A stretch of DNA of 50,216 nucleotides from contig JAOARL010000006.1 in assembly GCA_025210555.1 (NCBI GenBank), positions 1-50,216 on the forward strand, written 5' to 3'. The stretch is from Clostridia bacterium. Lineage in GTDB: Bacteria > Bacillota > Clostridia > Lachnospirales > JAOARL01. The notes beneath the pieces were generated by a model, which saw nothing but the letters and a program-made list of their open reading frames with translations, was not told the origin of the DNA and searched no databases. A program made the position numbers and the translations under genes. Below are positions 6,752-37,875 of this stretch, piece after piece. Each line of letters starts with the position of its first letter. The first letter of the stretch is position 1.

Positions 6752-7780
6752 CTACATATCAAGTTCATCAAGGCTTCTAACCATTTCACTAAACAGCTTA
6801 GAATCATTTACTATGCCACCAAGATCTTTGGGCTCAATTGATTGTCTACCATCACACATAGCTTCCTCTGGATTATTATGTGTTTCAATCATTAATCCAT
6901 CCGCACCACTTACAATAGCTGACCTAGATACAGCTTTTATATATTCTCTCTTACCACATGCATGTGAAGGGTCTATAATAATTGGTAAATGTGTTTCTTC
7001 TTTTAAAATTGGAACTGTAGACATATCTAAAGTGTTTCTTGGATCTAAAGCTCCATTTGCAAAAGTCCTTATACCTCTTTCACATAATATTACGTTACTA
7101 TTCCCAGCATACATTATATGTTCAGCAGCTAATAAAAACTCTTCTATATTAGCTGACATACCCCTTTTGAGAACTACTGGTTTGTTTGATTTACCTGCCG
7201 CTTTTAAAAGCGAAAAATTACTCATATTTCTTGCGCCTATTTGTATTATATCTGCATATTCTTCTACCATTGATAAACCTTCTTCATTCATAGCTTCTGT
7301 TATAGTAGGAATATTAAAAATTTCTCCTGCCTTTTTTAATAACTTAAGTCCTTCTTCCTCCATTCCTCTAAAACTATACGGACTAGTTCTTGGCTTAAAT
7401 GCTCCACCTCTAAGTATATTCGCTCCCTGCTCTTTTACAGCTTTAGCTATTGAATTCATAAAGTTATCTTCTGTAGGTTCAATTGCACATGGCCCTGCAA
7501 TAATTATTGGACTTCCATTACCTATCTCAACACCTTTTACATTTACTATTGTTTTATCCTTAAACATTTTGCTTGTCATGCCAACGTTTCCTTTTTCATC
7601 TAACTCATCATATCCACCCCTTAGTTCTTTAAGCACACTTTTATCAAACATATCACCTATTTTTTCAAAATTATCCCTTATAGCAACAATTCCATTATCT
7701 CCTTCAAAAAACTTACCACCAGCTTTCTCTAATATTTCCCTATTTTTATTTGTTAATCCTCTTCTAACCTTTATTATCAT
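6752..7780 (-). CDS. aroF: 3-deoxy-7-phosphoheptulonate synthase (DAHP synthase), type I-beta
   Basis: The enzyme condenses phosphoenolpyruvate with erythrose 4-phosphate, the first step of the shikimate pathway to Phe, Tyr, Trp. A small N-terminal ferredoxin-like regulatory domain (about 1-75), as in the Thermotoga-type enzyme, precedes the barrel. Visible motifs are AGPCAIE (about 98), GGAFKPRTSPYSF, IQIGARN, KPVVLKRGM, ILCERGIRTF, DPSHACGKR and the C-terminal metal-binding ETHNNPEEAMCDG. The ATG at 7780 is preferred because AGGAGG lies nine bases upstream; the ATG at 7786 would sit only 2-3 bases from it. An intrinsic terminator ends about 25 bp upstream and there is no room for a promoter after it, so expression must come by readthrough of two tandem leader-terminator units (7805-8178). 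Confidence 0.95.
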   Translation of the reverse strand: MIIKVRRGLTNKNREILEKAGGKFFEGDNGIVAIRDNFEKIGDMFDKSVLKELRGGYDELDEKGNVGMTSKMFKDKTIVNVKGVEIGNGSPIIIAGPCAIEPTEDNFMNSIAKAVKEQGANILRGGAFKPRTSPYSFRGMEEEGLKLLKKAGEIFNIPTITEAMNEEGLSMVEEYADIIQIGARNMSNFSLLKAAGKSNKPVVLKRGMSANIEEFLLAAEHIMYAGNSNVILCERGIRTFANGALDPRNTLDMSTVPILKEETHLPIIIDPSHACGKREYIKAVSRSAIVSGADGLMIETHNNPEEAMCDGRQSIEPKDLGGIVNDSKLFSEMVRSLDELDM

Positions 7781-7804
7781 TTTCATTTCCTCCTATTTTT
7801 TAAT

Positions 7805-7832
7805 AAAAAAAGAGTCCCTACACGGACTCTTT
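7805..7832 (-). terminator. Proximal attenuator terminator upstream of aroF
   Basis: On the minus strand a 9-bp stem (AAAGAGUCC with GGACUCUUU, loop GUGUAG) is followed by a run of U. It lies between the proximal leader ORF and the aroF RBS. The 5' arm can also pair with GGAUUUUU inside the leader ORF (codons Gly22-Phe23-Phe24), which would prevent the terminator forming. Confidence 0.9.
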
Positions 7833-7863
7833 AAATTCAAAGTTATAAATTTATAGTATTATA

Positions 7864-7971
7864 CTATCCCTGTATATGTGCAAATATTTTGTTGTATCCG
7901 AAAAATCCAGCGTAATAATAACCCCAGAAAAACATGCTAAAATATTTATTTGTTAAAACTTTATTTGCCAT
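7864..7971 (-). CDS. Aromatic-rich 35-aa leader peptide, proximal copy
   Basis: This short ORF has 35 codons, an ATG at 7971, a stop at 7864 and a good RBS (AAAGGAG, ten bases before the ATG). Twelve of the 35 residues are aromatic, and the core FFWGYYYAGFFGY contains Phe, Trp and Tyr, the three end products of the DAHP synthase pathway. The stop is followed by about 30 nt of AU-rich RNA and a terminator, then aroF. This matches a ribosome-sensed leader peptide for transcription attenuation (compare pheL or trpL of enteric bacteria), though no homologous leader is known to me. The peptide matches the distal copy at 28 of 35 positions. It could instead be a small functional membrane peptide; placement favours the leader. 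Confidence 0.8.
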   Translation of the reverse strand: MANKVLTNKYFSMFFWGYYYAGFFGYNKIFAHIQG

Positions 7972-8008
7972 ATACTTTTATCTCCTTTCTCAATATTTCA
8001 ATTTCTAT

Positions 8009-8038
8009 AAAAAAAGAGAGCCCCTACACGGACTCTCT
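8009..8038 (-). terminator. Distal attenuator terminator
   Basis: On the minus strand a 9-bp stem (AGAGAGUCC with GGGCUCUCU, one U-G pair, loop GUGUAG) is followed by a U-run. It follows the distal leader ORF and precedes the proximal one. It shares loop and arms with the terminator at 7805-7832. Compensating differences (extra G-C pairs at the base, matched in both arms) keep the stem intact. Confidence 0.9.
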
Positions 8039-8070
8039 AAATTTTAAAGTTATAAATTTATAGTATTATA

Positions 8071-8178
8071 CTATCCCTGTATATGTTGATATATTTTGTT
8101 GTATCCAAAAAATCCAGCGTAATAATAACCCCAGAAAAATACGTTAAAATATACAGTTGTTAAAACTTTATTCATCAT
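8071..8178 (-). CDS. Aromatic-rich 35-aa leader peptide, distal copy
   Basis: The ORF starts with two ATGs (8178) after AAGGAG and ends at 8071. It encodes 35 residues, 12 of them aromatic, with the 16-residue core FFWGYYYAGFFGYNKI (residues 14-29) identical to the proximal copy. The two cores differ by one silent change (TTC or TTT). It is the first gene after the promoter at 8214-8242 and is followed by its own terminator at 8009-8038. Its period to the proximal copy is 207 bp, and the 3' flanking sequence is also conserved, so the whole ORF-plus-terminator unit was duplicated. The likely role is ribosome-mediated attenuation of aroF. Confidence 0.8.
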   Translation of the reverse strand: MMNKVLTTVYFNVFFWGYYYAGFFGYNKIYQHIQG

Positions 8179-8213
8179 ATACTTTTGTAGCTCCTTTTTT
8201 ATAAATTTGATTC

Positions 8214-8242
8214 ATAATAACTCTATTAACATGTTTTGTCAA
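8214..8242 (-). promoter_or_regulatory. Sigma-A-type promoter of the leader-aroF operon
   Basis: On the minus strand TTGACA (8237-8242), a 17-bp spacer and TATTAT (8214-8219) form a near-consensus vegetative promoter about 36 bp before the distal leader ATG. No comparable promoter is seen between the two leader units or before aroF, so this one should drive the whole set. Confidence 0.8.
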
Positions 8243-8687: not shown

Positions 8688-10301
8688 TTAAAGCTCTCCC
8701 TCATAAACTTTATATACTTCTGCTTTTATACATATGATGTCTTCGTTTATTATATCTACATTACCACCTTGCATTTTAACTCTAAATGTTCCTTTTTCAC
8801 CTTTAGCTAAAACAGCTGCTAATGCACTAGTACCAGAAGCTACTGTATATCCAGCACCTCTTTCGTATGCTTCTATTTCTGATACTTTACCTTTGCTTTT
8901 CATTATTATAACATTTAAATCTTTATCTTTTAAGTGAATTTTTCTACCTAACTCTATTACTTTTTCTTTACTAAGTTCACTCTCTTCTATAACCAAATTT
9001 TTATTACCTATTTCTATGATTTTACCTTCTTCTGCTTCTAAAACATTATATCCATTTACAAATGTTTTTATAATTGTACTTTCTTTATCCTCTATTTCAA
9101 TTCTTATCTCTTTATCTTCTAAATAAATACTAAATTCACTAGATTTCTCAATATTTTTATCTCTTAAATACTTAGCAAATATCTTTGAAGCAAATATTGC
9201 CATATTTACTTTAGATCCATCTGGATTATAAACCTTAAAATCATATCTCCCTTTTTCTTTTATAGGACCATAAATAATTCCATCTGCCCCTACACCATAA
9301 TCTTTATTACATATTTCTTTTACCTTCTCTTCTGTAATATCCATATAGTTCTCATTTGGATCTATAACTATATACTTATTACCTAATACATGATATTTAT
9401 AAAATTTGTTTTCATTTATAAAGTTTGCATATGTCTCTAATCTATCACATGCTATAAATACTGCTTTTTTTCTTTCTGTAAGCTTTTCATCTATATCTTG
9501 CAAATATTTTATGCTAGCGGCAAAAGAGGCACCTGTAGATGGTCCTACTAGCACACCATTATCTCTACATAAAACTCTCATATAGTCTTTTGCATCTTTA
9601 GAACTAACATCTAATATATCATCATAATTCGAATACTTAAATATACCTACTTCTTCCATTTCTTCTGCTGTCCTTATTCCTGGTATATAATCATTATTCT
9701 TAGTAACTACTCCTATATTTATCAAATCACAATTTACTTCTTTTAGATATTTACTAGTACCTGTGCTTGAACCTGAAGTTCCAAGAACACTTATAAAGTA
9801 ATCTACCTTACCTATGTCATTAACTATTTCTTTTGCAGTTCCATTATAATGAGCATTTACATTATTCTCATTAGTATATTGTGTAGTATGATAATATTTA
9901 CCTGGATTTTCTTCTATCATCTTTTTAATCTCAGCCACTGTATTAATTCCTTTTGATACTTCTTTTACTTCTGCTCCTATAAACTTAAGTATATTTTTAG
10001 ACTCGGATAATTTAATTCTATTTGTAACAGTTAAAAATTTAATGTCATTTATAGCAGAAATACAGCAAAGACCTTTTGCAGTATTTCCACTTGAAGTTTC
10101 TATAACAGTTAAATTATTTTCTTTTATATACTCTAATTCATCTTTTATCATTCCATAAGCTGTTCTATCTTTTAATGATCCAAATGGATTAAGATATTCA
10201 AGCTTAGCATATAAATCTATATTTCTTAAACCTGTATATTTTGGATCAAGTTTTATTATTGGTGTATTGCCTACAAGTTCTGTCATTTTATTGATTAACA
10301 T
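8688..10301 (-). CDS. PLP-dependent cysteine synthase-like domain fused to a DapF-like domain without catalytic cysteines
   Basis: Residues 1 to about 295 are a fold type II PLP enzyme of the cysteine synthase/cystathionine beta-synthase family: Lys44 in NPFGSLKDRT for PLP, a TSSGNT substrate loop (69-74) and a GTSGSSTG phosphate loop (about 173-180). Residues from about 298 to 537 match diaminopimelate epimerase (GNKYIVID, YGVGADGI, NPDGS, ERGAGYTVASGTSA). Both epimerase cysteines appear lost: the CGNG motif after NPDGS is replaced by AIFAS (about 365), and ACGTGA is ASGTSA (about 490). So the second half may bind an amino acid without racemising it by the two-Cys mechanism. Substrate unknown; DAP-, lanthionine- or diaminopropionate-type chemistry is a guess. 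It has a structured leader upstream (10366-10487). Confidence 0.8.
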   Translation of the reverse strand: MLINKMTELVGNTPIIKLDPKYTGLRNIDLYAKLEYLNPFGSLKDRTAYGMIKDELEYIKENNLTVIETSSGNTAKGLCCISAINDIKFLTVTNRIKLSESKNILKFIGAEVKEVSKGINTVAEIKKMIEENPGKYYHTTQYTNENNVNAHYNGTAKEIVNDIGKVDYFISVLGTSGSSTGTSKYLKEVNCDLINIGVVTKNNDYIPGIRTAEEMEEVGIFKYSNYDDILDVSSKDAKDYMRVLCRDNGVLVGPSTGASFAASIKYLQDIDEKLTERKKAVFIACDRLETYANFINENKFYKYHVLGNKYIVIDPNENYMDITEEKVKEICNKDYGVGADGIIYGPIKEKGRYDFKVYNPDGSKVNMAIFASKIFAKYLRDKNIEKSSEFSIYLEDKEIRIEIEDKESTIIKTFVNGYNVLEAEEGKIIEIGNKNLVIEESELSKEKVIELGRKIHLKDKDLNVIIMKSKGKVSEIEAYERGAGYTVASGTSALAAVLAKGEKGTFRVKMQGGNVDIINEDIICIKAEVYKVYEGEL

Positions 10302-10394: not shown

Positions 10395-10480
10395 TAAAAG
10401 TTTGGTAGGTTGGCCCCCCTACATCTCTTTTAAGACCATTTATTGGCGTGGCAGCTACCTTTTCTGCCCTCAAACTTTTA
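10395..10480 (-). promoter_or_regulatory. Structured leader RNA, candidate riboswitch of unknown class
   Basis: The ends form a 10-bp closing stem (UAAAAGUUUG with CAAACUUUUA). Inside are a GGCAG/CUGCC hairpin with loop AAAAGGUAG and a GUAGG/CCUAC hairpin. The GGUAG in the first loop could also pair with CUACC near the 3' end, giving a pseudoknot, and UGGUC can pair with GGCCA. A promoter with a start at about 10487 lies just upstream and a terminator just downstream, then the cysteine-synthase/DapF-like gene. I compared it with the common riboswitch classes from memory and found no match; T-box signatures are absent. Confidence 0.55.
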
Positions 10481-10527: not shown

Positions 10528-10932
10528 TTAACTATATTTCATCCACCTTCCCGATTTAATCCTGTTAGCTAATTTACTTTTTGATATTGGATATAAACTT
10601 CTAAAAAACAATTCATTTTTATTATTAACTCTTACCGCAACCATTGATATTTCATCTATTTTTTTAATAAACTCTATCCCATTTCCGTTTTTACTTTTTC
10701 CTATATAATCAGGTTCTGAAATTATATCTGGTATCATATTTATATGTAATTCATACTGATTAACTGATATATATTCTAACTTATGCTTCTCTATATGACT
10801 TAATCTATCTTTCCACATTATAATATTTTTATACTCTATATCCATATTTAACATTTTAGCTGTTTTTATACTTATAGCTCCTATGTTAACTCTTTTTTTA
10901 CCACTATGAAACTCTTCTAATATACTCTTCAA
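10528..10932 (-). CDS. PBECR-type (Barnase-EndoU-ColicinE5/D-RelE-like) putative nuclease, orphan
   Basis: The protein is 134 aa. From about residue 38 it reads MWKDRLSHIEKHK, then NMIPDIISEPDYIG, IEFIKKID, AVRVNN and a C-terminal SKLANRIKSGRW. This pattern resembles the phage-associated BECR-fold ribonuclease domains called PBECR, in which the H-x2-KH and terminal Arg/Trp region forms the active site. Here the domain stands alone, not fused to a phage portal or MuF protein. The start is TTG at 10932 with GGAGAG six bases upstream. It follows the HigBA-type pair at 11081-11738, but a long inverted repeat (10982-11014) separates them. No immunity gene follows directly; the next downstream gene is metabolic. 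Family assignment is from pattern memory only. Confidence 0.5.
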   Translation of the reverse strand: MKSILEEFHSGKKRVNIGAISIKTAKMLNMDIEYKNIIMWKDRLSHIEKHKLEYISVNQYELHINMIPDIISEPDYIGKSKNGNGIEFIKKIDEISMVAVRVNNKNELFFRSLYPISKSKLANRIKSGRWMKYS

Positions 10933-37649: not shown

Positions 37650-37875
37650 AAACCACGGTATCACCTCATAATAGAGGCGAAAACCGCGGTACCACTCTAA
37701 TTTATTTACTATTGTAAATAATCTCTTAAGTCTTTAACGTAACAACACGAAACACCCTTATAAGATATTCAGCTCCAAGGCAAGTTCAAAAGTATACTAT
37801 GCTATTTTACACCATCCAATAGCTCTCTTAAAAAGTTTAAACTTTTTACTACTCCTCTTCAAAACTTTTAAGTTT
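37650..37875 (-). promoter_or_regulatory. T-box leader of leuS
   Basis: On the minus strand the RNA has a stem I with AGAGAGC and the distal GGUGUAAA motif, a candidate specifier CUU (37782-37784, after GAA) encoding Leu, the T-box AGUGGUACCGCGG (37684-37696) and a terminator whose 5' arm contains the antiterminator sequence (ACCGCGG...GAGGUGAUACCGUGG then U-run, about 37650-37692). Uncharged tRNA-Leu should stabilise the antiterminator. The specifier call is by motif position, not a fold. Confidence 0.92.

Follow-up and report, generated by a model that had tools for sequence, protein, structure and literature searches.

The window analysed here, a 50,216-nt stretch of a genome from a Clostridia bacterium, carries on its minus strand two 35-codon leader ORFs, each followed by an intrinsic terminator and placed in series between a single predicted promoter and a DAHP synthase gene, aroF (Table 1). 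The best PDB matches of the aroF product are the DAHP synthases 1vs1 and 1rzm/3pg9. Since an AGGAGG sequence lies only 2 nt ahead of the ATG at 7786, the true aroF start is probably the ATG at 7780. The two leader units form a 147-nt direct repeat with 90% identity, 207 nt apart, and residues 14–29 of the two peptides are identical. A sequence-only reading had described this layout as two 35-codon ORFs, each with an RBS and a terminator, 12 of 35 residues aromatic and an identical 16-residue core, lying between one promoter and aroF, and every element was found in place. Exactly two terminator-like sites were present (8038–8015 and 7832–7809; 0.1 expected from shuffles), and the count of promoter-like sites in the leader region equalled the shuffle mean. 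A dozen other short ORFs in the 29% GC window are equally aromatic, so aromatic richness by itself is weak evidence; the significance of the leader ORFs comes from conservation and covariation.

Table 1 Features of the tandem leader region and aroF. Segments 1, 2 and 3 are named by the pairings (1:2 and 2:3) in which they take part.
Feature	Position	Strand	Sequence or basis
Promoter for whole leader and aroF (predicted)	8214..8242	-	TTGACA-17-TATTAT; best match, 11/12; position only
RBS-like, leader ORF 1	8191..8196	-	AAGGAG; sequence; 12 nt spacing to ORF
Copy 1 segment 1 of 1:2 helix	8172..8182	-	GUAUAUG.UGA; includes start codon
Leader ORF 1, 35 codons	8071..8178	-	MMNKVLTTVYFNVFFWGYYYAGFFGYNKIYQHIQG; member of leader family in 24 bacterial families
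Copy 1 core hairpin, left arm	8126..8135	-	FWG codons
Copy 1 core hairpin, right arm	8113..8122	-	YAG codons
Copy 1 segment 2 as paired in 1:2	8079..8089	-	UCA.CAUAUAC
Copy 1 segment 2 as paired in 2:3 antiterminator	8073..8081	-	UACAGGGAU; ends in stop codon
Copy 1 segment 3	8025..8033	-	GUCCGUGUA; within terminator 5' arm and loop
Terminator 1	8009..8038	-	AGAGAGUCC GUGUAG GGGCUCUCU and U-run
RBS-like, leader ORF 2	7982..7987	-	AAGGAG; sequence; 10 nt spacing to ORF
Copy 2 segment 1 of 1:2 helix	7962..7975	-	GUAUAUGGCAAAUA; includes start codon; z −4.7, 0/200 shuffles
Leader ORF 2, 35 codons	7864..7971	-	MANKVLTNKYFSMFFWGYYYAGFFGYNKIFAHIQG; member of leader family in 24 bacterial families
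Copy 2 core hairpin, left arm	7919..7928	-	
Copy 2 core hairpin, right arm	7906..7915	-	
Copy 2 segment 2 as paired in 1:2	7872..7886	-	UAUUUGC.CAUAUAC
Copy 2 segment 2 as paired in 2:3 antiterminator	7866..7874	-	UACAGGGAU; ends in stop codon
Copy 2 segment 3	7819..7827	-	GUCCGUGUA
Terminator 2	7803..7832	-	AAAGAGUCC GUGUAG GGACUCUUU and U-run
DAHP synthase (aroF)	6752..7786	-	DAHP_synth_1 family, E 4e-73; profile match

Similar ORFs were already evident upstream of DAHP synthase genes in the order to which the source genome belongs, and a profile was built from the leader cores found there. At the level of the order it matched in 32 genomes out of 392, at that of the class in 38 out of 391, and at that of the phylum in 16 out of 398. 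After weak matches without a suitable gene or terminator were dropped, 50 order and class leaders outside the window and 10 from the phylum were kept; the former, with the two window copies, make up the 52 leaders analysed below. The weak matches L073, L075–L078, L108, L109, L134, L136, L137, L139 and L140 were inspected and judged to be chance. By these profile searches the leader occurs in about 60 other genomes and, counting the window's own, in 24 families. The window's bacterial family is represented by the source genome only, and comparison was therefore made without close relatives. The comparison of regions upstream of DAHP synthase genes that had been proposed with the original observation bears it out: the aromatic-rich ORF recurs in 24 families.

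The consensus of the leader is FYFxFSWG[YF][YF][YF]SAGYF[AC]CKK. Every member keeps the start codon and the Phe and Tyr codons, and an RBS-like sequence is usually present, while C-termini and lengths vary widely, with the stop codon 33 to 102 nt past SAG. Downstream of the leader, DAHP synthase is found almost without exception, in many cases with tyrA or aroB after it; where another gene takes its place, reading of translations identified it as pheA (L068, L069, L074 and L092), tyrA (L090) and aroB (L098). No Rfam family matched the leader in the window or at the other loci, the peptide matched no known protein family above cut-off in NCBIfam or Pfam, and a contig scan with the DAHP synthase gave only distant, non-clostridial matches. 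The leader is a widespread and apparently undescribed family in Clostridia and their relatives.

A terminator-like hairpin with a U-run follows all 52 leaders, the window copies included. Each ORF has an end that can base-pair with the 5' arm and loop of the terminator that follows it, and the sequences involved differ from genome to genome, for example CUAAUGAG with CUCAUUAG, CUUUCUAAGG with CCUUAGAAAG and CAUGAGUCU with AGACUCAUAG. The mean energy of this 2:3 pairing was −9.7 kcal/mol for own partners and −6.9 kcal/mol for partners swapped between genomes, and none of 20,000 permutations reached the observed value; window copy 1, the copy entered in this test, beat all 37 exchanges in both directions. 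The permutation tests on 2:3 and 1:2 treat loci as independent of kinship. In 30 of 37 non-redundant leaders, against 8.7 expected, the 2:3 helix starts 39–54 nt downstream of the SAG codon; its distance from SAG has an SD of 6.7 nt, compared with 13.8 nt for its distance from the stop codon, as expected if a core-bound ribosome sets the register. In nine further phylum loci, previously unused, z was −2.6 for 2:3 and −3.2 for 1:2. A further candidate pairing, possible at z −4.3, joins the WGG region to the 5' arm of the terminator.

The 1:2 pairing emerged from a test designed as a control, in which the start of the ORF was found to pair with segment 2 more strongly than the 2:3 pairing: its energy was −19.2 with the own partner and −12.5 with exchanged partners (z −12.7), and the helix reaches 22 almost perfect pairs in L103. 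Compared with dinucleotide shuffles, the 51 leaders had a mean z of −2.4, with −2.5 for copy 1 and −4.7 for copy 2 of the window. In several leaders, among them L054, L060, L066, L070, L071, L088, L091 and L093, the 1:2 or 2:3 pairing stands hardly, if at all, above the shuffles. In the window the two helices share just 3 nt (8079–8081 and 7872–7874), less than in relatives.

Inside the regulatory codons lies a further conserved element, a core hairpin in which UAGCUGGGGCUA pairs with UAGCGCUGGUUA through 11 pairs and a G.G mismatch. Several of its pairs are kept in 48 of 48 leaders although both partners vary (C-G to U-A; U-G to C-G or U-A), and in the window the partners have changed together in two of these always-kept pairs; only 2 of 2000 shuffles paired as well. 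Both arms are strongly conserved in sequence, the G.G mismatch is present in 44 of 48, and the hairpin loop is variable. Core codons are far more fixed than background usage (AGC, GGC and GCT): Ser is AGC in 36 of 41 cases in the core against a background of 0.16, and Gly is GGC in 41 of 43 at W-G but GGU in 31 of 43 at S-A-G (Fisher p 5e-12). The core hairpin accounts for the conservation of the non-aromatic S-W-G and S-A-G residues and of their exact codons, so the conservation of the non-aromatic core residues stems largely from the RNA. A separate small hairpin for each motif was ruled out, as GGC persists in leaders that have lost its partner AGC. An RNA polymerase pause consensus gave no consistent match by eye, and the core hairpin replaces it as the cause of codon conservation. 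Read in frame +1 as a second ORF, the core lacks stops in 40 of 52 leaders; this is meaningless, since its codon choice leaves little room for stops in that frame. The core showed no pairing signal with segment 1, with segment 2 or with the 3' arm of the terminator.

The region is very probably a ribosome-mediated transcription attenuator, present twice in series, as judged from sequence comparison. It combines a short ORF with an RBS and end-product codons, a terminator before the gene, a 2:3 pairing and a 1:2 pairing, the last two with a short overlap in the window. This interpretation rests on the ORF family, the terminators, the covarying pairings and the linkage to aromatic genes; the stalling, the tRNAs sensed, the function of the hairpin and the effect of two units we infer. 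The proposal that duplicated leader-peptide attenuators control DAHP synthase is accordingly supported at the level of sequence, by conservation across 24 families and covarying 1:2, 2:3 and 3:4 pairings. In the proposed mechanism, a ribosome would translate the Phe/Tyr-rich leader behind an RNA polymerase that is still transcribing. When charged Phe- and Tyr-tRNA are ample, the ribosome would reach the stop codon and cover segment 2, so that the antiterminator is blocked, the terminator forms and transcription stops before aroF. When they are scarce, the ribosome would stall in the aromatic core. Because the regulatory codons sit between segments 1 and 2, stalling on the first aromatic codons should leave segment 1 occupied and segment 2 free: the stalled ribosome, with a following or initiating one, would hold segment 1 unpaired, and segment 2 would pair with the terminator 5' arm and loop, allowing transcription to go on. 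If the leader is not translated, 1:2 would form and the terminator would win. The core hairpin, which joins the S-W-G and S-A-G codons, probably shortens the 1:2 loop, and it may also act as a pause signal coordinating polymerase with ribosome. Transcription would have to get past both terminators before it reaches aroF.

Energy folding with a masked ribosome footprint reproduced this switch only partly. For copy 2, the predicted fold contained 2:3 when segment 1 was masked, 1:2 when the RNA was free, and neither when segment 2 was covered. For copy 1 with segment 1 masked, a different antiterminator-like pairing was predicted, between the YAGFF codons and the terminator arm, and over 51 loci masking of segment 1 lifted the number with 2:3 just from 27 to 32.

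Other readings of the leader were weighed against ribosome-mediated attenuation. A TnaC-like arrest peptide, in which the peptide FxFSWGxxxSAGYF itself stalls the ribosome when an aromatic metabolite is present in free form and the stall is read out by the same RNA switch, would account for the conservation of the non-aromatic G, S, A, G and K across 24 families. All of these residues except K, however, are encoded by the core-hairpin arms with fixed codons and are explained by RNA pairing, which weakens the nascent-peptide explanation; substitutions of W by L or Q, S by N or G and A by T or V leave most of the pairing intact, and a stall under high aromatic supply would turn a biosynthetic gene on when it is unneeded. 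We regard this reading as very improbable. Still more improbable is direct sensing by the RNA, with the G.G-containing hairpin binding a protein or small ligand and the ORF being secondary: the strong conservation of both arms, mismatch included, agrees with it, but the hairpin loop is variable and matches no Rfam family, and the start codon and Phe/Tyr codons of the ORF are retained in all members, most of which also have an RBS-like sequence. That the ORFs encode small functional proteins, such as membrane peptides, with terminators that merely end their mRNAs and aroF expressed by readthrough or from its own promoter, is scarcely credible. The peptides are indeed short and hydrophobic, with their own RBS and terminators, yet they adjoin aromatic genes, the alternative pairings between ORF ends and terminator covary, and the C-termini and lengths are highly variable.

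A separate question, compatible with attenuation by one unit, is whether the doubling itself is a recent neutral duplication of which a single unit is regulatory. Two units occur in just the source genome among about 60, and their high nucleotide identity would fit this; no second unit was found in any other genome with the leader, and a search of the source genome at E 10 yielded just the two window copies. Drift, however, would break both the 1:2 helix and the terminator stem, whereas the differences between the copies preserve each copy's own. Codon 2 and codons 30–31 have changed together between the copies, the terminator stems differ by one compensated G-C/A-U pair, and the 1:2 energies are −10.1 and −16.0 within copies, whereas pairing one copy with the other gives −8.3 and −8.1. 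On this evidence both units look selected at the sequence level, these preserved pairings being the sole evidence that both act, and we consider neutral duplication unlikely, while allowing it an appreciable chance. Unlikely too, and offered tentatively, is a more elaborate form of the attenuation model, in which two homologous ribosome-sensing attenuators act as a serial multiplicative gate on one gene, while the G.G-containing core hairpin works as a pause or binding element in its own right, a second input beyond classical attenuators. The proposal in the sequence-only reading that serial copies would multiply repression draws its support solely from each copy's retention of its own matched 1:2 pairing.

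The sequence-only reading had the leader sensing all three aromatic tRNAs, which is doubtful. Phe and Tyr codons dominate, with means of 5.7 and 4.1 per 21-codon core, and 13 of 52 leaders have no Trp in the core. Profile searches of the source genome (PF01761, PF01264, PF04715 and PF00800) gave no match for AroB (3-dehydroquinate synthase), AroC (chorismate synthase) or TrpE (anthranilate synthase), each of which matched in at least 11 of 14 control genomes. DAHP synthase and a stand-alone 180-aa prephenate dehydratase are present in this 99.6% complete draft. The shikimate pathway appears to be broken, yet the gene for its first step retains its double attenuator intact; either the draft misses an operon or the pathway is incomplete, and in both cases a Trp response is unsupported.

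A T-box likewise couples tRNA charging to termination, but the sensor at aroF would be the translating ribosome, and the T-box model RF00230 (stem I, specifier, antiterminator) had no match at the aroF leader. The source genome contains 15 T-box matches, and those read sit, by translations, mostly on tRNA-synthetase genes including pheS and tyrS; one leader lies upstream of leuS in the window (37670–37871, minus strand). Two others (L111 and L113) precede non-synthetase-like genes whose translations resemble a small cysteine-rich protein and a methyltransferase-like protein. In another genome, a leader-peptide attenuator has a T-box upstream of it in divergent orientation (L095, 1014–1274, minus strand).

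T-boxes are regarded as the main means by which Clostridia control amino-acid genes, and tandem T-boxes and riboswitches are known. In classical attenuation, exemplified by trpL, pheL and hisL of enteric bacteria, alternative 1:2, 2:3 and 3:4 pairings decide between termination and readthrough. The clostridial leader shares with these systems an ORF rich in end-product codons, the three pairings, an intrinsic terminator and a biosynthetic gene downstream, and the pheL-pheA arrangement was observed in the comparison. Unlike them, it has another peptide, regulatory codons between segments 1 and 2 instead of in segment 1, an extra conserved hairpin inside those codons and DAHP synthase as its target; it occurs in Clostridia and relatives, with two serial units in the window.

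The nearest published element, compared by its text description alone, is uORFC-13-1 of Acholeplasma aroF, known from 24 examples in Acholeplasma and environmental sequences only, for which Phe-dependent attenuation was proposed (Brewer et al. 2021, PMC8632094); it too has a uORF with Phe codon(s) and an intrinsic terminator upstream of aroF. Leader-peptide attenuation is also described for the his leaders of bacilli and Clostridium difficile hisZ (PMC2965389, PMC4833913) and, with a leucine-rich peptide, for the Staphylococcus aureus ilv operon (PMC5794164). These Firmicutes leaders share ribosome-mediated attenuation but differ in amino acids and peptides, and are not known to have a core hairpin. 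The earlier statement that no such system had been described holds for Clostridia in the open-access literature, where we found none, and needs qualification in view of the Acholeplasma motif and the Firmicutes leader peptides. Salmonella mgtCBR likewise has two regulatory units per leader, tandem attenuators answering different signals, ATP and proline (PMC3641672), whereas the window has near-identical leader peptides with one terminator each.

The putative attenuator, found in 24 families and outside Rfam, NCBIfam and Pfam, stands at the entry to aromatic amino-acid synthesis, and as an alignable RNA family it could be annotated in many genomes. It would represent a second control by tRNA charging beside T-boxes in the same organisms, with T-boxes on pheS and tyrS and a leader peptide on aroF, and the source genome offers a natural experiment on two near-identical serial attenuators.

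Elsewhere on the minus strand of the window, positions 8688–10301 encode a 537-aa protein fusing a PLP-dependent enzyme domain (PF00291) with a diaminopimelate epimerase-like domain (PF01678). Directly upstream of this fused PLP/DapF gene lies a skipping-rope RNA (10397–10478; RF02924, 71.5 bits), and positions 10528–10932 encode a 134-aa protein with a PBECR-type (phage-associated Barnase/EndoU/ColicinE5/RelE-like) nuclease domain.
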